Below, piece by piece: positions 7,787-28,621 of a DNA stretch of 55,585 nucleotides (positions within the stretch are counted from its first letter, which is position 1; each line of letters begins with the position of its first letter). A program made the translations under genes and the position numbers. A model generated the notes under the pieces. That model had not been told where the DNA came from and searched no databases. It saw only the letters and a list, made by a program, of their open reading frames with translations. The stretch comes from Fodinibius salsisoli (GTDB taxonomy: Bacteria; Bacteroidota; Rhodothermia; Balneolales; Balneolaceae). The stretch is taken from contig NZ_JAGGJA010000020.1 in NCBI RefSeq assembly GCF_026229185.1, positions 1 through 55,585 on the forward strand. Direction: 5' to 3'.

Positions 7787-8776
7787 TTATTCGGCTGCAT
7801 CATTTAACGATTTTATGTATGCAACCAGTGAGCCGATTTCACTTTCGGACAATTGGTCATAGGGAACCATAGAAGGTGGAAACCCTTTTACAACCTTAGC
7901 AGATGGATTAGTGATAGATTCCTTCAGATACTCTTCATCGGCGGTCACGGTTGATCCATCTTCAAGTTCAACTTCACGGCCGTACAGACCCTTCCATGTT
8001 GGTCCAATAATTTTGGACCCGTCGAGTGAATGACAACTGCCACAAACATTTTCTTCGGCAATAGCTTTACCACGCTCTACAGAAACTTCATCACTGGCGC
8101 CTTCTGCTGCTTTTGCTTCTGCAGCGGCTGCGGCAGCCTGTTGGTTCTTAAACTCTTCCTGCATGGATGTCAGGTTAACATCATACTGACGAATTTCTTC
8201 TTCGGTAGCATTTTGACTTTTCTGTAGCGCCCGCAAATAGCCGACAATGGCCCATCGGTCTTTAACGGGAATCTGTTGGGCATAAGAAGGCATCGTTCGA
8301 ATGCCATTGGCAATGACCGAATACAGGTAACCATTACTTTGATTTCGCAGGCGATCAATATGAAAGCTGGGTGCAGGAACAAATCCGTAGTTGCCAGTCA
8401 TAATAATACCTTGTCCATCACCGCTGATACCGTGGCAAGGCGTGCAGTATACTTCATAACGATCTTTACCGCGGTACAAGAATGATTTCGTCAGTTCAAC
8501 GGGAATTTCTTCCACAAAGCTGCTGTCTTCGTTAATTCCTTGATAGTAAACCTTATCATGACGCAGGTTACCACGAGAAACGGTTCCTTCAACGGGCTGA
8601 CGCATCGCACGGCCGTCTTCGAAGAAGGTATTTTGTTCCTGAGGTTCAAACCTTTGTTGCTGGTCCATATTCATATTGGGATGAACCGGTGGCTTTTCAG
8701 AAATTTGTCCACGGCATGACATCAGGACCATTGGCAGGGCAATAGCCGCAAGAAATAAGTGCTTAGTAGCTTTCAT
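7787..8776 (-). CDS. actE: Alternative complex III cytochrome c subunit ActE, with a second heme domain
   Basis: From the ATG at 8776 (MKATKH) the protein starts with a lipoprotein signal (FLAAIALPMVLMSC, lipid Cys 21); an upstream in-frame ATG at 8791 would add five residues. Two cytochrome c domains follow: CTPCH at about 111-115, the usual ActE monoheme domain, and CGSCH at about 245-249 after an Ala/Glu-rich linker. The second domain closely resembles the heme domain of CoxB in the same operon (GPTWKG, DGSTVTADEEYL, AKVVKGFPPSM). ActE normally has one heme, so the extra domain is an addition, perhaps an electron bridge to the oxidase. It belongs on the periplasmic face. Confidence 0.93.
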   Translation of the reverse strand: MKATKHLFLAAIALPMVLMSCRGQISEKPPVHPNMNMDQQQRFEPQEQNTFFEDGRAMRQPVEGTVSRGNLRHDKVYYQGINEDSSFVEEIPVELTKSFLYRGKDRYEVYCTPCHGISGDGQGIIMTGNYGFVPAPSFHIDRLRNQSNGYLYSVIANGIRTMPSYAQQIPVKDRWAIVGYLRALQKSQNATEEEIRQYDVNLTSMQEEFKNQQAAAAAAEAKAAEGASDEVSVERGKAIAEENVCGSCHSLDGSKIIGPTWKGLYGREVELEDGSTVTADEEYLKESITNPSAKVVKGFPPSMVPYDQLSESEIGSLVAYIKSLNDAAE

Positions 8777-10824: not shown

Positions 10825-13800
10825 TTAAGCCAATTTCGGATTGGGGTTACTAAGTTCAGAGAGATACGAAGTTCTGGGGCGAGTGTTAAGTTCTTCAAGA
10901 AGCAGGTAGTTGCGATTGTTGTTCTTGGTCTTCACAACTTCACTGTCAGGATCCGTAAGGTCACCGAAATAAATAGCATCGGCAGGACAAGCTTGCTGAC
11001 AGGCTGTTTCTACTGAACCGTCTTCCGGCTTCATTGTTGCGCCGTTTGTGTCGATATCCGTCTGGATTTTTGCTCGATTCACACGCTGCACGCAGTACGA
11101 GCATTTTTCCATGACACCACGGAACCGAACACTTACTTCCGGATTCATCGCCATTTGTACGATTTCCGGATCATCACCGCTGGTCAAAAATTCTTTGGAA
11201 TAGTTGAAGAAGTTGAAGCGACGAACCTTGTATGGACAGTTGTTAGCACAATAACGAGTCCCGATACAGCGATTATACGTCATTTGGTTCATCCCATCTT
11301 CACTGTGGGTGGTTGCCGCAACGGGACATACCTGCTCACAAGGCGCCATCTCGCAGTGCATACAGGGCACTGGCTGGTGTAACGCTTTTGGATTGTTGAC
11401 ATCGCCCTCATAATAGCGGTCGTTGCGGATCCAGTGCATTTCACGGCCCCGGCTCACTTCTCGTTTCCCGACAACCGGGATGTTGTTCTCAGCCTGGCAA
11501 GCGATAGTGCAAACACCACAGCCCGTGCAGGCATTCAGATCGATAGACATACCCCATTGAGGTTCGCCATCGGGATATTCTTGCTCATCAATAGGATTAA
11601 AGATAGAAAGCGGATCTTCTTCGCCGTGCTCTTCAGCATACGACAGACCGGGCATTTCTGCATCATAAGATGATTCATAAGTGGAGAAATGCGGATCTTC
11701 ACGATATTCTTGCAGGGTTGCATGGCGCAGGAGGGATCTTCCTTCCATCGAGTTGTGGTCCTGCGTACAGGCAATCTCATAGGTGCTGCCCGTTTTCTCG
11801 ACCGAAATATCAGATGCATAAAGCATATTGGAGGTCGTACGCAATGGATAGGTGTCAACACCGGTCTTATTTGCAACACGACCGATACCTTCACGCCCAT
11901 ACCCCACGGTGATGGTAATGCTGTCATCTGCGTGGCCGGGCTGTACCCAGGCAGGCAGTTCGACAGTGGTTCCATCAACCGTAATAGAAACAATTTCTAC
12001 CTCCGATTTACCAAGCCCGGCTTCTTCTACACCCAGTTCGTCCGCTGTTTTCTTACTCATCAGCGCAACATTATCCCAAGTGATCTTCGTCATTGGTTCA
12101 GGAAGTTCCTGAAGCCAGCCATTATTGGCAAATCGTCCGTCAAAAACTTTTGAATCAGGGCGAATAACCAGTTCCATACCCTCAGCAGAAGCTGTATCGT
12201 TGATAAAACTACTTGCCTGCGAACTAAACTCATCAGAAAGGCTTGCTGAGACCGTAGGATAAGTCTCTTCTTCGTCGGCAATACCATCGTGCAGTGTCTG
12301 CTCCCATTGGTTCTTGAAATTGGAGCTAAAATAGGATTGCCAGGTCTCTTGAACGAGATCATAGCCTTCTGCAGGCTCTCCGTTGAGGATGGTGCTTAAA
12401 AATTCAATTTCACTGACGCCGGAGTATAACGGCTCAATCTGCGGCTGGACAATAGATCGGCTTCCGGTATAGGATCGACCGTCGCTCCAGGCCTCAAGAA
12501 AGTGAGCCCGGTTAATGTGCCAGCTTGCCTGTTTTGAGGTCTCATCGTAATAATCAGAGAGATGAATAACCTCCGTGGCGTTGGAAAGTGCATCTGAGAA
12601 GTTCAAGTCAGCAGGAGCGGTAAATGCAGGGTTGGTACCCGTCAGTACAACCGTATCGATTTCGCCATTGTTAAGGTCTTCAACAAGTGTGGCAAAAGCT
12701 TCGCGATTGTTTTGGTCATCAATGTGATCGACCTCGTGATACGTAACGGTTTCACCAGCATTGCCAAGAGCCGTATTAATAGCAGCAATAGTGGCATGGA
12801 GCTCAGGCTGGTGTTCGCTTCCTACTGTTAGGATAGATTCGCCTTCATTTTCAAGCAGTTCTTCTGCCAGAACGGGAATCCATTCATGATCCGAAAATTC
12901 GTTGTTATAACCGCTGAAAGCCGACAGTCCGTTAACAGATCCGGAGAGTTCAGCTGCAAGGGCATATATAAAGGAACCGATATTGCCGGATTTAATGCGC
13001 AAACGGTTGTCAGCATTAGAACCGGTTATTGAAAAGGTGCTCTCGATAGCATAAAAGCGTGACATACCATCTTCAGGAGAGCTTACCTGCCGTCCACTTG
13101 TAAATTCCTTGGTGTTTTGAACACTGTTTTTATCACCTGCAGGATTCAGGAAGTCATCATCAAAACTGACAATTACATTGGCAGTATCGAAGTGGTTAAC
13201 CGTTCGCAGGCGTTGCCCAAAAGCGATGTTGGTGCCTTCAAGGGCATTGTCTTCGCCGAAAGCCTCATACGTTATCCAGCGGGCATTCGGGAATTGGTTG
13301 AGTGCCTGCTCTTTTAATCTATTATAAGTAAGAGAAGAGTTGGCCTCCGATACAAAAGCAATATTTTGATCGGTGTTGGAAAAATGATTGGCGCAGAATT
13401 TAGCAAAAGCACTTACTGACGAGCGCTCGCCGTCGTTCCGGACGTAGCGAGAGCGATCAGGATCGTACATATTCAGAATCTCGGCCTGCCCAAAGGCACT
13501 GGTATTTCCTTTGCTGGCCGGATGCATATCGTTTCCTTCAATTTTGCCCGGTCGGCCTTCATGGTTTTCAACAACAATACCCGTCAACGCATCCTGAAAG
13601 GGCATTGCTGAGGCATAATACAAGGGTTTGCCGGGGGTTACTTCTTCCGGCATATCCGAATAAGGCATGATCTTCTGCACAGGACGCCGGCAGGCTGCAA
13701 ACCCGGCAAGGGCTATAGAAGCACCCATTACGCGCAAGAAACTACGCCGTGATACCTCATCGTTGAGTTCAGTAGCATTTTCGGGGAATTCGCGCTCGAC

Positions 13801-13878
13801 GAACTTTTGGTACTCCTCATTTTTGGCAAGTTCGCCCAGGCTTTTCCAGTAATTGGGACTCTTTACTTCTTCGCTCAT
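10825..13878 (-). CDS. actB: Alternative complex III iron-sulfur subunit ActB (molybdopterin-like plus ferredoxin domains)
   Basis: A 1017-aa subunit. Near the N-terminus is a twin-arginine motif (SRRSFLR, Arg44-45) followed by a lipobox-like LAGFAAC (Cys63), so a Tat-exported lipoprotein is likely. Residues about 75-720 form a molybdopterin-oxidoreductase-like domain that lacks a visible N-terminal Cys cluster, as in other ActB proteins, which have no molybdenum. The C-terminal 230 residues form a four-cluster ferredoxin domain: [35 protein letters not shown] and CSYCVQRV with CQQAC. These carry electrons from ActC to the heme subunits. The start gives a 48-base gap to actA. Confidence 0.96.
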
Positions 13879-13926
13879 TCGGTTACAATTGCGTTAATTC
13901 AGATTCGTTCGGTTTGTTATACCTTA

Positions 13927-14571
13927 TTAATAGTGGCAGCCTTGACAGTAGGTCGGGGGCGCAATATTATTTTTGGCCACTAACTCACGACCTCTTTCGA
14001 TCTGGTTGGGAACTTCATACCCCATTGTTGTCACTTCTTCGACAGGACGCACATGTTGTTCAGGATTGCGATGGCAGTCAAGACACCAGCTCATGCTCAG
14101 TGGCTCGGCCTGTCGTACAACTTCCATCCGATCTATACGGCCGTGGCAACTTTCACAACCTACGCCCACATTTACGTGTGCTGCGTGATTGAAATAGGCG
14201 TAGTCAGGCAGGTTGTGTACGCGAACCCACTCCATCGATTTGCCTGTTTCCCAGCTCTCCCGAACTTTGGCCAATTTAGGACTGTCCGTCTTAATTTGGC
14301 TATGGCAGTTCATGCAAGTTTCGGTTGCTGGCACATTGGCCTGTTTAGAATCAAATACTTTGGTATGGCAGTATTGGCAATCAAAATCCAATTCGCCGGC
14401 ATGGAGTTTATGGCTAAATGGAACAGGCTGTTCCGGAGCGTAGCCAACATCCGTATATTCCGGAGAGAAATAATACCAAACTCCGGCTACTGCTGCTGTT
14501 GCGATAATAATCAATCCGAGCAATAACCGCTGCGGTACATCGTCTGCCCATTTGGGGAAAATCTGAGCCAT
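13927..14571 (-). CDS. actA: Alternative complex III pentaheme cytochrome c ActA
   Basis: A 214-aa protein with one N-terminal membrane helix (about 14-34) and exactly five CxxCH motifs: CQYCH (65), CMNCH (86), CESCH (139), CLDCH (163) and CQGCH very close to the C-terminus. Five hemes is the standard number for ActA, which relays electrons from ActB toward ActE and the oxidase. It is the first gene of the 13-kb minus-strand operon. A weak TAnnTTTG-like element (AATATTTG, 604-611 of the 14-kb block, i.e. 14604-14611) lies just upstream on the minus strand; it lacks the first T, so I do not call it as a promoter. Confidence 0.96.
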   Translation of the reverse strand: MAQIFPKWADDVPQRLLLGLIIIATAAVAGVWYYFSPEYTDVGYAPEQPVPFSHKLHAGELDFDCQYCHTKVFDSKQANVPATETCMNCHSQIKTDSPKLAKVRESWETGKSMEWVRVHNLPDYAYFNHAAHVNVGVGCESCHGRIDRMEVVRQAEPLSMSWCLDCHRNPEQHVRPVEEVTTMGYEVPNQIERGRELVAKNNIAPPTYCQGCHY

Positions 14572-14938: not shown

Positions 14939-15502
14939 ATGAATAATGACAAGCCCTTTACGTTAGATCTGTTAAAAGATATTAGCCTGGCAAAGGCTAT
15001 TGGTGTTATACTATTAATAAGTGCGGCGGCCTTTGGCTTTTTAATCTGGCTGATCTACTTCAAGGGGGGGAGTGATTACAGTTCAAATCTGATAACCAGC
15101 CTGCCCGCGCTCAATGCTTTATTAAATAGTACCAGTACGGTGCTGTTATTATTTGGATACAATGCTATCCGTCAGCGGGATTTTACCAAGCACATGAAGT
15201 ATAACTTAACGGCCTTTGTTACCTCTTCTTTGTTTTTGATCAGCTATGTAATTTACCACAACTTCCATGGCAGTACGCCCTTTACGGGCCAGGGCATCAT
15301 TCGCCCCGTCTATTTCTTCATCCTGATCTCTCACATTATTCTCTCGGCCCTTGTTATGCCCATGATTCTCACCAGCTTCTATCTTGCCTTTTCCGGCAAA
15401 CTGAAGCTGCACCGCAGAGTATCCAAAGTAACGCTGCCGGTTTGGTTGTACGTGTCAGTTACGGGTGTGGTTATTTTCTTCCTGCTGAGGGCATACAGTT
15501 AG
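14939..15502 (+). CDS. DUF420 membrane protein (CtaM/YozB-like oxidase assembly factor)
   Basis: A 187-aa protein with five predicted membrane helices, of the DUF420 family. The Bacillus member (YozB/CtaM) is needed for activity of heme A oxidases such as caa3, and Bacteroidota members commonly sit near cytochrome oxidase genes. Histidines lie at helix ends as expected (FTKHMKYNL, YVIYHNFHGSTPFTGQG, LISHIILSALVMPMIL, LKLHRRVSKVTLPVWLYVS). It diverges from the ACIII-caa3 operon, so a role in assembling that oxidase is a fair inference from family and position. Confidence 0.85.
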   Translation: MNNDKPFTLDLLKDISLAKAIGVILLISAAAFGFLIWLIYFKGGSDYSSNLITSLPALNALLNSTSTVLLLFGYNAIRQRDFTKHMKYNLTAFVTSSLFLISYVIYHNFHGSTPFTGQGIIRPVYFFILISHIILSALVMPMILTSFYLAFSGKLKLHRRVSKVTLPVWLYVSVTGVVIFFLLRAYS

Positions 15503-15553
15503 TTAATCGTTATTGGTTATTAGGTGATTTTGTCCACTTATAATAGCCTTTAC

Positions 15554-15703
15554 TCATTTATTTCTTGTAGGACGCACCCTGAATTCCTTCCTGTGGGTTT
15601 CCGACAAGAGCTTTTTTAAGATGGATGTGATTCCTTTCTTTAATTTGGGAAGGGTAATGAATGCCGATGTATAGCCAATATACCGTATCGGTTTACATCT
15701 CAT
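15554..15703 (-). pseudogene. Decayed fragment of the ppk 3' region
   Basis: The minus strand encodes PIRYIGYTSAFITLPKLKK and GITSILKKLL. The intact Ppk in this window has PKIYIGSGDW ... MPITLPKLKKRITSILKKAL. The fragment therefore matches the Ppk C-terminal domain with about a dozen codons deleted between the two blocks, and it loses one base in the AAAAAAGCT run after SILKK, shifting the frame. The nucleotide match to 21361-21419 is obvious by eye (shared GAGCTTTTTT and TTGGGAAGGGT). It is a degraded partial duplicate, about 5.7 kb from the true gene. Confidence 0.75.
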
Positions 15704-15879: not shown

Positions 15880-16689
15880 TTAAATAAGGTCTCTATGTTG
15901 GTATAACAGGACACCCAAAAGAAGAAGAACCCCGCTATATAAAAAATTCTCGGCAATGACATTCCAAAATAATGTGAATTCTGGGTGCAGGATGTTCTGC
16001 AGGATACCATCCTGAATAAGTGATTGTTTGAGTAAGGCCGGGGAGCAATAATAAATGGCAGCTCCGAGTCCTTGAAAAACAGCGTACTCACTTTCCATCA
16101 TACGCTCATAAAGAAAGATATGCTGGAAGGGTCCGGCGATATAAAGGGCTATGGCCACGCCGCTACTGGGTATTCGAGACCAGAATAGTCCCAAGACAAA
16201 GGCCACCGTGGAGTATCCGAAAATAAGCATCAGCTTCTGGAGTCCGCCCATCCAGAAAAGCGGGGAGACTGAAAGGTTCCAGTAGATCATAAAACTGCCA
16301 GCCATGGCAAAGCCTGTCAGAAAAAATGCAGCAAAAAACAGCTGCAGGCCGCACCATTTACCGACCAACAACTGCCAGCGCGCTACGGGTTTGGCCAGCA
16401 CGCCTACAATAGTCCGGGCGTTCTTCTCCTTCTGAACCATTCCAGAGGCAAAAATAATGACGCCGATAGTCATAAAATCAGTCCATAGCCCTAAAGATGT
16501 AGTTAGGACTCTCACTTGGGTTAAAAACACCGAGTACTCCTCCGATGAAGAAATGCCATCCATAGCGTCAGCAAAATCATCTCCTACAAAAGAAGAAACA
16601 ACCAGCATCAAGAAAAAGAGCAGATAAATAATACGGTTGGCCAGAAACGCCCGGATGGTGTTCTTGGCAATTACATAAACATGTTTCAT
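15880..16689 (-). CDS. ABC-2 type transporter permease (second of two)
   Basis: A 269-aa membrane protein with six predicted helices, of the NosY/ABC-2 permease type. It shares layout and motifs with the 265-aa permease upstream (KNTIRAFLANRIIYLLFF at the start; FASGMVQKEKNARTIVGVLAKPVARWQLLVGKW; compare FASGVLPKEQQDKSIAGVLAKPISRW), so the two are paralogues that probably pair as a heterodimer under the single ATPase at 18146-19084. It is the last gene of the five-gene operon, 72 bases after the second thiol oxidoreductase. The substrate is not known; context suggests a role with the Cys-rich precursor encoded divergently. Confidence 0.85.
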   Translation of the reverse strand: MKHVYVIAKNTIRAFLANRIIYLLFFLMLVVSSFVGDDFADAMDGISSSEEYSVFLTQVRVLTTSLGLWTDFMTIGVIIFASGMVQKEKNARTIVGVLAKPVARWQLLVGKWCGLQLFFAAFFLTGFAMAGSFMIYWNLSVSPLFWMGGLQKLMLIFGYSTVAFVLGLFWSRIPSSGVAIALYIAGPFQHIFLYERMMESEYAVFQGLGAAIYYCSPALLKQSLIQDGILQNILHPEFTLFWNVIAENFLYSGVLLLLGVLLYQHRDLI

Positions 16690-16761
16690 CTTGAGTTCTT
16701 CTGCTACTTGTTATTAGATATCAAAAGCGGCCTTCCCATCTATGGGTTGTAATGTATTGGG

Positions 16762-17295
16762 TTATTCCTTTTGCAACCAATATTCAATACTGTAGGGCCA
16801 ATGGCGTATGTTAAATAAGCCTGGGCTAATATGCTTGATGGTGCCCGTGCTGTCCACTAAAAAAGAGGTGGGCAACTCTTCCATGTTTATCCGTTGCGAC
16901 TGGACGTTACGGGCATCGACTAAGACCGGAAATTCCAGGGTATATGCCTCTGCCAGGCGGCGAGCAGCCTCTCGGCTATCACCTACCTGTACCAAGACCA
17001 TCCCCAACCCGCTCTCTTGGTACTTCTCATGCATTTTCTTCATCACCGGGAACATGCGCCGGCACGGCCCGCACCCCGTTTGTCCAAAACCAATCCACGT
17101 GAGCTTATTTTGTTCAATGATGGGTTGTATATCTACTTGTTGCCCGCTGACATCAGGCAATGAAAAATAGTGGATGGGATCGTCCCGAGAATATACAAGC
17201 GAGGGGCTGTTGCGGCTTTCTTTTTTCATCCACCACTGGGCCCCGGCAAAAACGATAGCAATGGCTACTGCAATAATGGGCAATGACTTCCGCAT
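16762..17295 (-). CDS. TlpA-like thiol-disulfide oxidoreductase A
   Basis: A 177-aa thioredoxin-fold protein with an N-terminal membrane anchor (about 5-22) and a redox site TGCGPCRR with Cys75 and Cys78. The usual Trp before the motif is replaced by Gly (TGCGPC instead of WCGPC), and the preceding FGQ replaces FWA, which may alter redox potential. A cis-Pro region (MEELPTSFLVDSTG) is present. It faces the periplasm. It resembles the first gene of the operon (19074-19604) across its whole length and lies between the two permease genes, 56 and 72 bases from them. Two TlpA proteins in one ABC operon suggests handling of a disulfide-rich substrate. Confidence 0.88.
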   Translation of the reverse strand: MRKSLPIIAVAIAIVFAGAQWWMKKESRNSPSLVYSRDDPIHYFSLPDVSGQQVDIQPIIEQNKLTWIGFGQTGCGPCRRMFPVMKKMHEKYQESGLGMVLVQVGDSREAARRLAEAYTLEFPVLVDARNVQSQRINMEELPTSFLVDSTGTIKHISPGLFNIRHWPYSIEYWLQKE

Positions 17296-17351
17296 GAATA
17301 GAGGCGTTCTTGATTAACGTTTAATTATTTATGGTGAATTTGGTCCCTGGG

Positions 17352-18149
17352 CTATGGTTGCCCTACGGCGATATCCTTTTTCTGATACAAAATAACAGCG
17401 AACAGTAATAAAAGTGCTCCATAACAACCGTTTATCCCGATGGTAGCCCACAAAAAAGGGACACTCAGGTGCAGGCTATCTTGCAAACTTCCTTCCCATA
17501 GCGGATATATATTCAAATGAACCGGCGTTACGTAATACAGCGCAGAAACGATTAGTTGCCGAAGAGCACCTTCCCCATCGGCGAAGCGAAGGAAGTAGGT
17601 ATGAAAATAAAACAGCGAAAAGGCCAACCCTCCGGCCAGAATCCGCGGAAGCACAATGCTCAGCATATAGGACAGGGTGGTAAATGTCACAAGCAGTAGC
17701 AGGTAGTGAAGTAGCCCTATATAAAAGAATCCTAATATTGGAAATTGCCAATAGATCATCGCTGTAAGAATAAAACCAGCTCCTATCACAAAGATGGTAC
17801 AAAAGAACAATAACACCCCACTCCATTTCCCCAGCACAAACGTCCAGCGGCTGATGGGCTTGGCTAGTACCCCGGCGATGCTTTTATCTTGTTGCTCTTT
17901 GGGAAGTACCCCGGAGGCAAAGATAATCGCCGTGATGGCCGTCAGAAAGTACCACCAGCCAAGGGTGCCTGACAGCAGCCAAACCTGTTCAATGAACAGT
18001 TGCAGGTTGGCATAGGCATAGAAAATATTATACACCTTTTGCCATTGCAGGGCAGCAATGATCACAATCAAAAATAGAAATAGATAAAACACCTTTTTGG
18101 CAGCAAACCCGTGTAGCGTATTCCAGGCAACAAGGCGAATGGTTTTCAT
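17352..18149 (-). CDS. ABC-2 type transporter permease (first of two)
   Basis: A 265-aa protein with six predicted membrane helices, ABC-2/NosY-like. It starts with an amphipathic RLVAWNTLHGFAAKKVFYLFLFLIV segment and carries the conserved loop FASGVLPKEQQDKSIAGVLAKP after helix two. The start overlaps the ATPase stop by four bases (ATGA), a sign of translational coupling and complex formation. The second permease gene lies two genes downstream. Substrate unknown. Confidence 0.87.
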   Translation of the reverse strand: MKTIRLVAWNTLHGFAAKKVFYLFLFLIVIIAALQWQKVYNIFYAYANLQLFIEQVWLLSGTLGWWYFLTAITAIIFASGVLPKEQQDKSIAGVLAKPISRWTFVLGKWSGVLLFFCTIFVIGAGFILTAMIYWQFPILGFFYIGLLHYLLLLVTFTTLSYMLSIVLPRILAGGLAFSLFYFHTYFLRFADGEGALRQLIVSALYYVTPVHLNIYPLWEGSLQDSLHLSVPFLWATIGINGCYGALLLLFAVILYQKKDIAVGQP

Positions 18150-19084
18150 GATGACTCCTGCTCTAATTTCATGTACAACTCTTCCAAAGTCCGTGTTTGG
18201 CGCTTCACGTCCACGATCTCTACGGGAGACTCCAGCAGGCGGCTTAACAGTTCGTCCTTATCCTGATCTGTACACATAATTCCAGTCCCTTGCTCCCGAT
18301 CGCGCATCGTCACATTCCATCTACCATCCAATATCGTTTTGTCCAGAAGCTCTTGCCCACCGCGGATCGTTATGGCCCATCGGTTGCTGGCGGCTTTAAG
18401 GTCTTGTAAATCACCGGAAAGTACCTTTTTTCCCTCTCGGATCATGACCACTTCATCGCATAATCGCTCGATGTCTGACAGGATATGGCTACTGAAGAAA
18501 ATGGTCTTTCCTTTATTTTTCTCTTCGAAAATAAGGTCTCTAATTAATTTCCGGCCCTGAGGATCCAGCCCCGTAAACGGCTCGTCCAAAATAAGCAACT
18601 CGGGATCGTGCAACAGCGCCTGCGCTATGCCCAAGCGCTGTTTCATGCCTTTGGAAAAAGAACCAACCCGTTGGTCAACAGCTGACATAAGGCCCATCCG
18701 ATCCAGTTGGTGGTCAATTTCTTTTTCGAGGCGGGTACCACTCATATTAGCCAACCGCCCATAAAAACGAAGTGCCGCCCTGGGTTTTAAAAATTCGTAA
18801 GTATGAAAAATTTCGGACTGAAATCCCAGGCGGCTGCGTGCTTTTTTCGATTGGGGCGGTTCTCCCAAAATCTCAATCGATCCGGCGTCCGGAATGAGCA
18901 TCCCAAGTATACAATAGATCGTGGTTGACTTCCCAGCCCCATTTGGTCCGATGAGCCCTACGACGGAGCCCTTGCTAATCTTAAAGGATAACTCATCCAC
19001 AGCTTCTACTTCCTTCCGAAACATCCCTCTCCTGTAGCTCTTGGTCAGGTTTTGTATACGGACAACAGGGTTTTCACTCATCAT
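18146..19084 (-). CDS. ABC transporter ATP-binding protein
   Basis: A 312-aa ATPase with Walker A GPNGAGKST (about residues 42-50), signature SFSKGMKQRLGIAQALL, Walker B ELLILDEPFTGLDP and the switch His in FFSSHILSDIERLCDEV. The C-terminal 80 residues beyond the nucleotide domain are typical of ATPases that serve ABC-2 permeases (NosF/CcmA/bacitracin-export types). It overlaps the upstream TlpA gene by 11 bases and the downstream permease by 4. It energises the two permeases of this operon. Confidence 0.93.
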   Translation of the reverse strand: MMSENPVVRIQNLTKSYRRGMFRKEVEAVDELSFKISKGSVVGLIGPNGAGKSTTIYCILGMLIPDAGSIEILGEPPQSKKARSRLGFQSEIFHTYEFLKPRAALRFYGRLANMSGTRLEKEIDHQLDRMGLMSAVDQRVGSFSKGMKQRLGIAQALLHDPELLILDEPFTGLDPQGRKLIRDLIFEEKNKGKTIFFSSHILSDIERLCDEVVMIREGKKVLSGDLQDLKAASNRWAITIRGGQELLDKTILDGRWNVTMRDREQGTGIMCTDQDKDELLSRLLESPVEIVDVKRQTRTLEELYMKLEQESS

Positions 19085-19604
19085 CTAATGTTCTTTTAAT
19101 TATTTGGTCCCATCCTTCCGGAATGCCTTCACTCACATGGAGAATCATCCCCGAATCATCTACCAAAAAGGAGGTGGGAACAGTTGTAATATTACTAGGC
19201 TGGGATTGGGTACGCATAGAGTCGACCAAAATAGGATAGGGGACCGGAGACTTAGTTAAATATTTGGTTACGGTCGCCGGTCGTTCTCCTATGCTGATCC
19301 CCACCATCCCCAGTCCTTTCTCATGATACTGCTCATACAGCTCACTCATCATCGGCATTTCCTGGCGACAAGGCCCACACCAAGTGGCCCAAAAGTTTAC
19401 CCATGTAAGTTTGTTATCGCTGACAATATCCTGAAGCTCAACGGGGCGACGATCAATAGTTGGAAGGGTAAACGGTTTTATCTGGTCACTGACATTATAT
19501 ACCAGTCGTTGATTGGCCCGGATATTCTTTTTGACCCAATAGGAAAACCCAACAAAAAGGGCTAACAAGCCAATAATTATAATTCTGTATATGTTTTCTT
19601 TCAT
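19074..19604 (-). CDS. TlpA-like thiol-disulfide oxidoreductase B
   Basis: A 176-aa membrane-anchored thioredoxin-fold protein: basic N-terminus, helix at about 8-24, then a periplasmic domain with the canonical FWATWCGPCRQEMP site (Cys76, Cys79) and cis-Pro segment TTVPTSFLVDDSG. It is the first gene of the ABC operon and overlaps the ATPase by 11 bases. TlpA/ResA proteins act as reductases or isomerases in cytochrome c and oxidase maturation, but here the partner genes encode an exporter and a divergent eight-cysteine precursor. Confidence 0.92.
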   Translation of the reverse strand: MKENIYRIIIIGLLALFVGFSYWVKKNIRANQRLVYNVSDQIKPFTLPTIDRRPVELQDIVSDNKLTWVNFWATWCGPCRQEMPMMSELYEQYHEKGLGMVGISIGERPATVTKYLTKSPVPYPILVDSMRTQSQPSNITTVPTSFLVDDSGMILHVSEGIPEGWDQIIKRTLDDE

Positions 19605-19767
19605 ACAGTTTGTGATATCCTGTTTCTAATCATATTCCATGATAGGTTATCCAGAAATATAATGATCAACATGGATATATAATAAACTATTATTTATATT
19701 CAATATCATATTTTTTAAATATGAATTGTATGACGTAATAATATATTCATCTTTAAATAAAATAACT
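19605..19767. promoter_or_regulatory. AT-rich divergent promoter region of the Cys-rich precursor and ABC operon
   Basis: 163 bases, strikingly AT-rich, between divergent genes. On the plus strand a TTG (19726-19728) and CATCTTTA (19748-19755) are spaced 19 bases apart, similar to Bacteroidota -33/-7 elements, and end 12 bases before the ATG at 19768. This is a weak match (TAnnTTTG would be ideal). Confidence 0.35.
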
Positions 19768-20634
19768 ATGAATTCATCTAAGTTTACCGGGATACCAATA
19801 TGTATATTTGTAATATCTTTTTTGTTTGTTTCATGTGACAAAACTAATCCCATAAATTCTACTGAGAAACCAGTACATTTGGAGTCTAGGTCCAAGGCTC
19901 AATCTAATCAGAAATCCGTTCTTTTTGATACTTCTTCCTTAGAGCTAGGATGCAAAGCTGTAAACGCTTGGGTACAGAAAAATTCTGAAAATTTACCAAA
20001 TAGCCTTAGTTCTATTTCCGTTTTTCCTAAGACATATAGGAAAGCAATATTTAATGAGCTTTCATCAGTGGAAAGATATAATTTATGGAAAGAAAGGTTA
20101 AGGAGTTTCATGGAAAAAGATAAATTATCTGCAGAAGAGAAGTCAAAGCTAAGATCAATCATTAATGATTTATCTCCTTCGGTTTTTAGCAAAAGCAATG
20201 ACAAGAAGCTTAATGTTTTAACTAATACAAGCGAGATTGTTCGTATTTTCGGAAGAGACCTCGCAAAGAGAATATTTACCTCTTTAGCTCCATCAAACCA
20301 CCTTGAAAATTCTTCTATATCTCTAGTAAATGATGTGAATGGAATAGTAAACGCTAGTCAGAACCAAAAAATCGATTGTAACTGCAGAACTGATGATATT
20401 TGGTATGGGTGTGACCCAACTGGAGTTGGACCCGAAGTCCGATGTGTACACAAAGATGATTTACCATATCTGCCGTGTAGCCAGAATGATGCATATGGTT
20501 GTGGGACTTTTTGGCTTCGAAGATGTAATGGTGCATGTCGACATGCAGAACAACCAGATCCTCCTGGGCCTGATCCCGACCCTGCTGCTCTTAAAGAAGA
20601 TAAAGATATTCGACCCAGAGAGAATAATAAGTAA
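19768..20634 (+). CDS. Fulvocin C-related bacteriocin-like precursor lipoprotein
   Basis: Taken from the ATG at 19768 (288 aa), because it gives a lipoprotein signal (ICIFVISFLFVSC, lipid Cys23); an in-frame ATG at 19726 lacks this. The central part (about 65-140: NAWVQKN..LP, YRKAIFNELSS, RYNLWKERL) is helical. The C-terminal part holds eight cysteines: 204, 206, 215, 226, 237, 245, 253 and 257, with the blocks CNC, YGCGTFW and RRCNGAC. This resembles Myxococcus fulvocin C, a peptide of 45 residues with eight cysteines that begins CxC and has a GCGxxW then CxC end, and the family annotated as bacteriocin fulvocin C-related. A Pro/Asp-rich, charged tail follows. It diverges from an ABC/TlpA operon and looks more AT-rich than its neighbours. 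Antibacterial activity is inference. Confidence 0.65.
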   Translation: MNSSKFTGIPICIFVISFLFVSCDKTNPINSTEKPVHLESRSKAQSNQKSVLFDTSSLELGCKAVNAWVQKNSENLPNSLSSISVFPKTYRKAIFNELSSVERYNLWKERLRSFMEKDKLSAEEKSKLRSIINDLSPSVFSKSNDKKLNVLTNTSEIVRIFGRDLAKRIFTSLAPSNHLENSSISLVNDVNGIVNASQNQKIDCNCRTDDIWYGCDPTGVGPEVRCVHKDDLPYLPCSQNDAYGCGTFWLRRCNGACRHAEQPDPPGPDPDPAALKEDKDIRPRENNK

Positions 20635-20656
20635 AATATTTAATTTTAAATTTGAC

Positions 20657-20690
20657 AAAAGGCCGCCTTTTGGGTGGCCTTTTTATTTCT
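20657..20690 (+). terminator. Terminator of the fulvocin-like gene
   Basis: Stem AAAAGGCCGCC / GGTGGCCTTTT (one G-U pair) followed by TTTTTATTTCT, 22 bases after the stop codon. Confidence 0.85.
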
Positions 20691-20820: not shown

Positions 20821-21044
20821 ATCGCTACGCTTTCGGGGGTTCTGAATCGGCGTTAGTGGCCCGTATTTGCCTGTTTCGATACAATAAATTTCGCTACAGT
20901 TAATGGGGTAGTGGTTAGGTCGAGCGGTTCTGAGTATGCTTTTAGGTTTAGGTTCATTTAATCTGTTCCTTTACAGATATTTCCTGCTGTGGGCTTATAG
21001 CAATAACAGTTATTGCTTGTAGGACAGTAGGACCCACCCTTAAT

Positions 21045-21066
21045 CCCTCCCTGCTGGCAGGGAGGG
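21045..21066. repeat. Extragenic palindrome, 10-bp stem
   Basis: CCCTCCCTGC (21045-21054), TG loop, GCAGGGAGGG (21057-21066), perfect. The flank at 21031-21055 resembles 15571-15594. Neither strand has a T-run after it, so it is not an intrinsic terminator; it looks like a REP-type element. Confidence 0.6.
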
Positions 21067-27262: not shown

Positions 27263-28621
27263 TTGTTAAACCTGATGCTGATGGGGGAAGAGACGTTTTA
27301 TAATCGTGTACGCAAACAATTTTTTGATATACGAAAGAGAGAATGGCCAACGGTACTATTGATGTCCACGTTTTTCTTTATGGTCATTGGTACATTCTGG
27401 ATCTTAAAACCTATGAAGCGGGGCCTGCTGGTCGGGTATTATCAAAATGCGCCACTACAGTTTTTGGGAACAACTTTTGCCGGTGCCGAAGTGGAACAGT
27501 TGGCAAAGGTCCTTAATATGGTTGTCGTTTATGGGATGGTCGTACTCTTTACGGTACTGGCCCGGAAGTTTTCACGGCAGAAAATGAATGTAACCCTGTG
27601 TCTGCTGTTCGCTGCCCTTTTTATTCTTTTTGCTAATTTAATGTATAGCCCAACCGCGAAGGTCGCCTGGTCGTTCTATATATTGGGAGATATGTTTAAC
27701 TCGGTGTTGCTCACCTTTTTTTGGGCTTTCTCAAACGACATATTTAATTCAGATCAAGCCAAGCGAACATACGGTATTGTGGGGCTGGGAGGCGTTATCG
27801 GAGGGATGGTCGGGGCGACGGTGGTTGCCGGGAATGTCAGTGAATGGGGTCGACCAACCTTATTATATCTTTGCGTAATTCCAATGTTCATTCTCATTGG
27901 GATTGGTTATGTAGTGGATCGTCGCGACACTTCAACACAGGCAGCACGATCGTCCAAAGAAAAGGATAACCAAGCCCCGGACAATGCAATAGTTGAAGGC
28001 GCTAAATTGGTATTTCAATCGAAATATTTATTGGGTATTGTCGGAATTATTGGCCTCTATGAAATTGTTTCGAATATTGTGGATTTTCAATTATCCGCAA
28101 TCATTGCCCAAGAGGTAGCTGGTGATTTGAGAAAGGATGCCTATTTCGGTTATGTGGGACAACTAACCAACACTATTTCCGTCATTGTGCAGCTTTTCTT
28201 AACCAGTTTTGTGATGAAGAGGTACGGTGTGGGAATAGCGCTCTTATTTTTGCCAGTCGCTATCACCATGGGATCGGTCGGATTTCTGTTTGTTCCCAGC
28301 TTGATTTTTGTCACTATTATGTCTGCCAGTGATAACAGCCTGAATTATTCTATTAACCAATCGGCTAAAGAAGCGTTATACACCCCGATGAGCAAAGATG
28401 TGATATACAAAGCCAAAGCTTTTATTGATATGTTTGTACAACGTTCAGCTAAAGTATTAGCCGTGTTTCTGAATTTGATAGTAGCAGCATACATTGGCTT
28501 AGAGAACATTCGTTGGTTATCAGTAGCATGTTTGCTAATTTTGTTTTTTTGGATTTTGATCGTACGCTTTGTGGGAAGAGAATTTAAAGAACACACTTCT
28601 GAAGAAGTAGTGGTTGATTAA
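27263..28621 (+). CDS. Npt1/Npt2 (ADP/ATP translocase)-family membrane carrier
   Basis: A 452-aa protein with about twelve predicted helices, resembling the NTT/TLC nucleotide carriers of chlamydiae, rickettsiae and plastids: opening REWPTVLLMSTFFFMVIGTFWILKPMKRGL, then FTVLARKFSRQKMN, FFWAFSNDIFNSDQAKRTYGIVGLGGVIGG, and the late SINQSAKEALYTPMSKDVIYKAKAFIDMFVQR. The NQSAKEALYxP(M/T)..KYKAKAFID block is a family hallmark. In free-living bacteria the substrate is not established. The start is a TTG at 27263, well placed behind GGGGAGA; ATG codons at 27275 and 27281 are alternatives. The next gene encodes a phosphatase-barrel fusion, 73 bases downstream on the same strand. Confidence 0.8.
   Translation: MLNLMLMGEETFYNRVRKQFFDIRKREWPTVLLMSTFFFMVIGTFWILKPMKRGLLVGYYQNAPLQFLGTTFAGAEVEQLAKVLNMVVVYGMVVLFTVLARKFSRQKMNVTLCLLFAALFILFANLMYSPTAKVAWSFYILGDMFNSVLLTFFWAFSNDIFNSDQAKRTYGIVGLGGVIGGMVGATVVAGNVSEWGRPTLLYLCVIPMFILIGIGYVVDRRDTSTQAARSSKEKDNQAPDNAIVEGAKLVFQSKYLLGIVGIIGLYEIVSNIVDFQLSAIIAQEVAGDLRKDAYFGYVGQLTNTISVIVQLFLTSFVMKRYGVGIALLFLPVAITMGSVGFLFVPSLIFVTIMSASDNSLNYSINQSAKEALYTPMSKDVIYKAKAFIDMFVQRSAKVLAVFLNLIVAAYIGLENIRWLSVACLLILFFWILIVRFVGREFKEHTSEEVVVD

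Follow-up and report, generated by a model that had tools for sequence, protein, structure and literature searches.

The contig NZ_JAGGJA010000020.1 of Fodinibius salsisoli, of which positions 1 to 55,585 are the stretch analysed here (hereafter the window), harbours between positions 15,880 and 20,690 what is, judging from sequence, a real fulvocin-type gene of a known, barely studied family, transcribed divergently from an operon that encodes two TlpA-type thiol oxidoreductases and an ATP-binding cassette (ABC) unit with two ABC-2 permeases, the operon itself being unusual. Sequence and comparison support the membership of the gene in the family, the conservation of its cysteines, the recurrence of a thioredoxin-fold (Trx) partner and the common insertion of the six genes. 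We read these genes as a laterally acquired cassette of ~5.5 kb that would encode a disulfide-rich fulvocin-type peptide, its own foldases and a pump for export or self-protection, a reading whose chances we judge to be about even.

The precursor gene (19768..20634, on the plus strand, as are its parts given in this paragraph) starts with ATG and encodes 288 amino acids (aa); an alternative in-frame TTG at 19726 would lengthen the precursor by 14 residues. From the N-terminus onwards the protein has a hydrophobic start and a helical region, then a linker that leads to a stretch with eight cysteines, and finally a proline-rich tail. The start, read from the translation, is a putative signal sequence (19768..19836) with a lipobox-like FVSC at its end (Cys23). 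The helical domain (residues 56-170, 19933..20277) comprises helices predicted by AlphaFold2, mostly with high confidence, and was recognised across the family by leave-one-out hidden Markov models (HMMs); it may be a leader or propeptide, or else a permanent domain. The eight-cysteine module (residues 204-257, 20377..20538), modelled with moderate confidence (mean pLDDT 70.8), contains C204 and C206 (a CxC), C215, C226, C237, C245 (within GCGxxW), C253 and C257, the last two forming the final CxxxC as CNGAC. It is marked by its invariance in the alignment described below and by the motif GCGxxWxxxCNGxC, which in degenerate form matched once in the window and in none of 100 shuffles. Beyond the last cysteine follow the proline-rich tail of 31 residues (20539..20631, from the translation) and a terminator-like hairpin with a T-rich tail after it (20657..20683, from a consensus scan), which ends shortly before position 20690, the end of the stretch treated in a preliminary description of this DNA. 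The gene content and motifs listed in that description, including the lipoprotein-type start, the CxC, GCGxxW, the final CxxxC and the eight cysteines at 204-257, are all present. No Pfam family matched the precursor. That the helical domain or the cysteine module adopts a known fold was considered and rejected, as Foldseek searches of both against the PDB gave no match below an E-value of 5.6 and a profile search for a solved relative found none (best E-value 0.48).

When searched against NCBIfam, the precursor matched NF033852 ("bacteriocin fulvocin C-related protein") with 86 bits and an E-value of 4.4e-24 (cut-off 35 bits), which bears out the family resemblance that the preliminary description had proposed. 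To sample the family, genome contigs were scanned with a degenerate DNA motif for GCGxxWxxxCNGxC, which yielded 92 matches in 91 loci; 74 open reading frames (ORFs) in 73 loci, each of 8 kb or less, were kept, 70 through a cysteine pattern and four by hand (L034, L064, L065 and L097). The 18 matches dropped were short or unrelated frames, among them one from Myxococcus (L041), whose motif frame spans only 30 codons and which may be a real member. The scan sampled members that carry the motif, and thus not those lacking it, such as L007 or the one of genome G065. Judged by their record titles, the 74 members belong to the Bacteroidota (36), Actinomycetota (33), Acidobacteriota (2), and Chloroflexota, Myxococcota and Gemmatimonadota (1 each), and all ten that were scanned with NCBIfam, representing all six phyla, scored above the NF033852 cut-off.

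The eight cysteines, GCGxxW and CNGxC were invariant in an alignment of 66 rows (A5), made up of the window and 65 of the 74 members, the other nine having fewer than 110 residues ahead of the motif; as the rows were mostly picked by a pattern that demands cysteines, this invariance is partly built in. The conservation of the eight cysteines in homologues, on which the preliminary description had staked its proposal, thus holds within that limit. Among the window and six members found independently of the motif (L006-L011, i.e. five Streptomyces plasmid genes and that of G065), six of the eight cysteines were invariant and the remaining two were kept in most rows. The helical domain, which played no part in the choice of rows, was detected in 66 of 66 by leave-one-out HMMs, with a largest E-value of 4.8e-9 and one of 1.9e-18 for the window row, the alignment columns having been fixed with the tested row included. 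Contrary to the earlier view that a lipid-anchored leader of ~200 residues would be unusual, the helical domain is therefore a family trait, and a lipobox-like start, by a rough pattern, occurs in 15 of the 36 Bacteroidota members; leader length was accordingly dropped as an argument against a bacteriocin. What is unusual within the family is the 31-residue proline-rich tail, since no more than 16 residues follow the last cysteine in any of the 74 members except L097, whose frame looks disturbed. The window protein thus shares with NF033852 the eight cysteines, GCGxxW, CNGxC and the helical domain, and differs by this tail and by the divergent operon, which was not seen beside the other members examined.

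Some loci of the family showed peculiarities of their own. A fulvocin-type gene in L012 (genome G159, about 8000-8600) is seemingly split over two frames and is followed by a small protein that is DUF1573-like by eye, without a Pfam match to DUF1573. L088, an 8-kb stretch of a Chitinophagales metagenome-assembled genome, has one fulvocin-type motif match on each strand, and in the Myxococcus loci L056 (3588-4919) and L041 (3375-4832) the motif is followed by similar large same-strand proteins, ceramidase-like by eye.

The strongest reason for thinking that the TlpA proteins of the window act on the cysteine module is that the family is recurrently coupled to a Trx-fold partner. A Trx model built from the two window TlpAs was iterated over the same member loci, in which less than 1 kb lay downstream of 6 of the 36 Bacteroidota and 7 of the 33 Actinomycetota ORFs. 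Of the 30 Bacteroidota members whose loci extend 1 kb or more downstream, 19 were followed within 450 bp by a same-strand Trx-fold gene, 17 of which encode a CxxC; those listed are mostly ~280-330 aa long, starting with several hydrophobic segments and ending in a Trx domain (by eye). No Trx match lay more than 1.5 kb from a member in the same loci (145 kb), and 18 member-less loci (138 kb) contained one weak match. No Trx gene neighboured any of the 33 Actinomycetota members, including the 26 with at least 1 kb downstream, the sole distant match lying 4.3 kb off on the opposite strand. Fisher's test of 19/30 versus 0/26 gives p = 2.4e-7, a value that is illustrative only, the rows being related and the Trx model having grown on these loci. 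An Acidobacteriota member (L018) is also followed by a Trx gene with a CxxC.

In the Actinomycetota and Chloroflexota the partner seems instead to be part of the protein itself. With eight Actinomycetota ORFs excluded because the edge of the locus truncates them, an N-terminal fused CxxC domain was present in 25 of 26 members of these two phyla, L092 being the exception, and in-frame reading upstream of the five Streptomyces plasmid genes revealed an N-terminal CxxC domain there too (by eye). In 24 aligned rows (alignment A6, without the near-copy L099) the CxxC and a proline 41 residues past its second cysteine were invariant. The predicted fold of the domain in one protein (L096) runs beta-alpha-beta-alpha-beta-beta-alpha, and its best Foldseek match was thioredoxin (E-value 7.9e-3, probability 0.99). 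It is because of the CxxC, the invariant proline and this predicted fold that we assign the domain to the Trx fold; a Pfam name was rejected, as only one of the seven proteins scanned (six from Actinomycetota, one from Chloroflexota) gave a weak DCC1-like match (E-value 0.04, 15.6 bits, cut-off 27.8). Two arrangements thus link the eight-cysteine module to a Trx-fold partner, three if the window is counted. The expectation of a repeated TlpA-ABC neighbourhood, put forward in the preliminary description, is borne out in its Trx part by the downstream genes of the Bacteroidota and the fusions of the Actinomycetota and Chloroflexota, and fails in its ABC part across the 73 loci.

Other genes were observed around the members. 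A DUF1573 gene lies near 12 of the 36 Bacteroidota members, and Pfam confirms two examples (L083 and L011). O-antigen-ligase-like genes occur near Bacteroidota members in ten loci (L026, L029, L031, L052, L064, L065, L080, L090, L091 and L098), four of which also encode a transglutaminase-like protein, checked with Pfam on L098 only. A membrane protein of ~230 residues is encoded upstream of the fulvocin-type gene in L026, L039, L052, L080 and L098, preceded in some loci by PadR-like regulators (by eye). A conserved neighbour in the Actinomycetota was sought and rejected, the clusters that emerged being read, by eye, as shadow frames of the member gene or as gene content that close relatives share.

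The operon of the window is separated from the precursor gene by an A+T-rich intergenic region of 163 bp (19605..19767), from which the precursor gene and the operon beginning with TlpA1 may be jointly regulated. All five of its genes lie on the minus strand, in the order TlpA1 (19074..19604), a ResA/TlpA-type Trx-fold protein with one N-terminal hydrophobic segment, WCGPC and matches to AhpC-TSA/Redoxin and ResA; an ABC ATPase resembling GldA, DrrA and NosF (18146..19084, ABC_tran); the NosY-like ABC-2 permease 1 (17352..18149, PF12679); TlpA2 (16762..17295, CGPC), a paralogue of TlpA1 by Pfam/NCBIfam matches and the TlpA alignment; and permease 2 (15880..16689, PF12679), a paralogue of permease 1. 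The operon had been described as compact, a single ATPase being accompanied by two TlpAs and two paralogous permeases, and this proved accurate: TlpA1 and the ATPase gene overlap by 11 bp, the ATPase and permease 1 genes by 4 bp, and the remaining intervals between genes measure 56 and 72 bp. CGPC and PTSF are retained in both TlpAs. The TlpAs (38% identical) and the permeases (34%) are paralogous pairs, and a TlpA-permease pair looks duplicated around the single ATPase; each permease may thus have its own TlpA partner. Among solved structures, ABCA-type domains matched the ATPase best, NosF following with an E-value of 1.8e-40 over residues 27-303, and a profile of the two permeases had NosY as its best solved match (E-value 0.012).

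The six genes occupy one insertion of ~5.5 kb between genes that adjoin in two congeners. The left neighbour is a DUF420 gene, present in 12 of 12 genomes of the genus, and the right neighbour, named from sequence as polyphosphate kinase, is present in five of the 12. In two congeners the matched flanks lie 125 bp (G009) and 55 bp (G001) apart, i.e. they adjoin, while in the window the matched flanks enclose 5.7 kb containing all six genes; in G004 they are about 2 kb apart with a Ppx/GppA-like phosphatase frame in between (by eye), and in G011 they lie on different contigs. An imperfect direct repeat flanks the block on the plus strand (15479..15593 and 20981..21053). Its left copy starts inside the DUF420 gene, at the 3' end, which looks as though the end of the target had been duplicated. 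The local score of the pair was 50.2, whereas none of 1762 random placements within the window scored above 40.0, and a 29-base pattern drawn from both copies, with up to three mismatches allowed, matched the 4.85-Mb genome exactly twice, at these two copies.

Both gene sets are sparsely distributed. The fulvocin family was found in one of 38 relatives, namely the window's own genome, in none of 11 congeners, and in three of 394 genomes of the phylum, two of these above the cut-off. The operon permease and TlpA occur in two of 58 relatives, and the permease profile matched one of the 394 phylum genomes, with at most six candidates scored per genome and the related genome G411 lying outside that sample. 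In a tree of the family the Bacteroidota members form a single group (branch support 99/94), and the window row falls outside it, on the side occupied by the Actinomycetota, Myxococcota, Acidobacteriota, Chloroflexota and Gemmatimonadota, its nearest row by path being a protein of Myxococcus dinghuensis. Lateral gain is the simplest reading of the window cassette. A phage origin was considered and rejected: a phage collection gave no match, and a scan of viral contigs, made with the window protein alone, no confirmed one.

How closely the window resembles characterized systems can be assessed at several points. Fulvocin C of Myxococcus is secreted and has 45 residues, eight of which are cysteines, and in having eight cysteines within a short peptide it is like the putative peptide of the window; the nearest tree row to the window is another Myxococcus protein. 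Transporters of the LanFEG/BcrAB type, which confer self-immunity to peptides, combine one ATPase with ABC-2 permeases of two kinds, each of ~250 aa. The operon shares the layout of one ATPase and two permeases, and its ATPase matches the lantibiotic protection ATPase family TIGR03740 with 162.6 bits, a score below the cut-off of 309.75 (which is silent on an analogous function) and lower than those for GldA (202.1 bits) and DrrA (195.9), themselves below their cut-offs; it differs in its interleaved TlpA genes, and no lantibiotic gene was recognised. The relation to NosFY, with the permease profile leading to NosY and the ATPase to NosF, is one of sequence resemblance only: none of the six insert genes matches NosD, NosL or NosZ, and the operon has two permeases instead of one, plus the TlpAs. 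For fulvocin C of Myxococcus fulvus, PMC8708641 cites Tsai and Hirsch (1981).

Taken together, the favoured reading would work as follows. The precursor would leave the cytoplasm by the Sec route and become lipid-anchored, and two periplasm-facing TlpAs would form or proofread four disulfides in its cysteine module while the helical domain plays the part of a propeptide or of an intramolecular chaperone. The module would then be released by a protease of the host, and the ABC unit, with its one ATPase and two different permeases of ~265 aa, would move the peptide or clear it from the producer's membrane as self-protection. The released peptide is probably antibacterial, a step that we take because of the family name and the analogy with fulvocin C.

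Several observations weigh against this reading as a whole. For 11 of the 30 Bacteroidota members no Trx match lies within 450 bp, and there is none over the entire loci of the Acidobacteriota member L054 and the Myxococcus member L056, the latter with a Sec-type start by eye and without any TlpA or ABC match in its locus; the only Trx match near the Gemmatimonadota member (L076) lies 3.5 kb off on the other strand, and among the genes annotated next to four Streptomyces plasmid members, in a gene table that is incomplete, there is neither a TlpA nor an ABC gene. The insert showed no peptidase and no additional immunity gene, and the word bacteriocin in the family name itself rests on resemblance. 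The placement in the tree is rough, with a long window branch (2.1) and bootstrap support that has not settled. Moreover, the inserted block may be composite, with separate origins of gene and operon, because the G+C content of the fulvocin gene (0.364) differs from that of the operon genes (0.437-0.498).

The last point would equally follow if the divergent operon were an unrelated, generic thiol and lipoprotein module, i.e. a TlpA with a NosFY-like ABC unit, whose Trx link to the fulvocin-type gene is coincidental here. This explanation, which we regard as rather unlikely, also accords with the divergent transcription of the two gene sets and with the absence of any ABC unit of the window type adjoining another member in the 73 loci. 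In these loci a same-strand ABC ATPase stands in the gene run behind the member only in L068 and is of a different kind from that of the window, and in four others ABC ATPase matches lie 0.8-3.3 kb off on the opposite strand. The idea of an ABC exporter as part of a conserved fulvocin system was therefore not upheld, since in these loci TlpA reappears beside other members and the ABC unit does not. The operon's nearest relatives among those found, in a genome of the same family and another genus (G411), point the same way. They consist of one TlpA, 42% identical to TlpA1, one ATPase and one permease, the latter split over two frames, in the same order as in the window, and are preceded upstream by two genes for propeller-type lipoproteins, of which one matches PF17170 and the other, without a Pfam match, is propeller-type by eye. 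The set is homologous to that of the window, with a single TlpA and a single permease against the window's twins, and the fulvocin gene, which was searched for in G411, is absent; this set therefore counts against a dedicated fulvocin exporter and led us to keep the generic module as a rival. No small cysteine-rich peptide in that locus was convincing. Yet both gene sets, rare as they are in relatives, lie 163 bp apart in one repeat-bounded insertion, and a TlpA neighbour is just what would be expected from the independent Trx coupling of the family elsewhere.

It is also conceivable, and in our estimate unlikely, that there is no bacteriocin at all and that the cysteine module stays for good within a lipoprotein of the surface or periplasm, in a structural or a metal- or thiol-sensing role, the TlpAs keeping its cysteines in a chosen redox state. 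The lipobox-like N-termini of the window and of 15 of the 36 Bacteroidota members (by the rough pattern) would tether the protein rather than release it, and the DUF1573 genes near 12 Bacteroidota members, the failure to recognise a recurring immunity gene in the member loci and the lack of a solved relative among those searched agree with such a role. The module nevertheless sits at the extreme C-terminus behind a linker of low confidence in both models (the window protein and L096), as expected for a releasable peptide, and fulvocin C itself is secreted as 45 residues with eight cysteines. Highly improbable, in our view, is a third explanation, by which the operon handles lipoproteins or small molecules of various kinds, for instance as an ATP-driven relay in the periplasm that resembles NosDFY and includes thiol enzymes. 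The fulvocin-type protein would then be just one among several interchangeable clients, a role that propeller lipoproteins would fill in G411. Among solved structures the permeases match NosY best, NosF covers residues 27-303 of the ATPase, and G411 shows a one-strand order of propeller, propeller, TlpA, ABC and permease, the propeller-type genes being observed upstream of the TlpA-ABC-permease set at L111 8629-11435; but the ATPase is closer to ABCA-type domains than to NosF, and the notion of swappable clients stands on two loci, the only cassettes found.

Elsewhere in the window, a gene for a TLC-type ATP/ADP transporter (27263-28621, PF03219) was observed; such transporters are best known from intracellular bacteria and plastids. 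To the left of the insertion, genes for a large iron-sulfur/molybdopterin-type subunit and a multihaem cytochrome c (10825-14571) look like what we take to be alternative complex III.

Returning to the laterally acquired cassette, the openly available papers that were searched mention fulvocin C only in passing and nowhere describe its neighbourhood, and they (including PMC12333140, PMC8708641 and PMC10434189) contain no description of a Trx partner in differing arrangements across phyla. We tentatively propose, as a possibility somewhat short of probable, that fulvocin-type peptides constitute a widespread disulfide-locked class in at least six phyla, many of them with a dedicated Trx-fold foldase in three independent arrangements: an N-terminal fusion in Actinomycetota and Chloroflexota, a downstream polytopic Trx protein in Bacteroidota, and in the window a mobile twin-TlpA cassette with a NosFY-like heteromeric pump and one TlpA per permease. 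The recurring, differently arranged Trx partner leads to the hypothesis that the eight-cysteine peptide needs its own foldase, and, if the peptide is antibacterial, Bacteroidota and Actinomycetota would be the source of a new bacteriocin class rich in disulfides.

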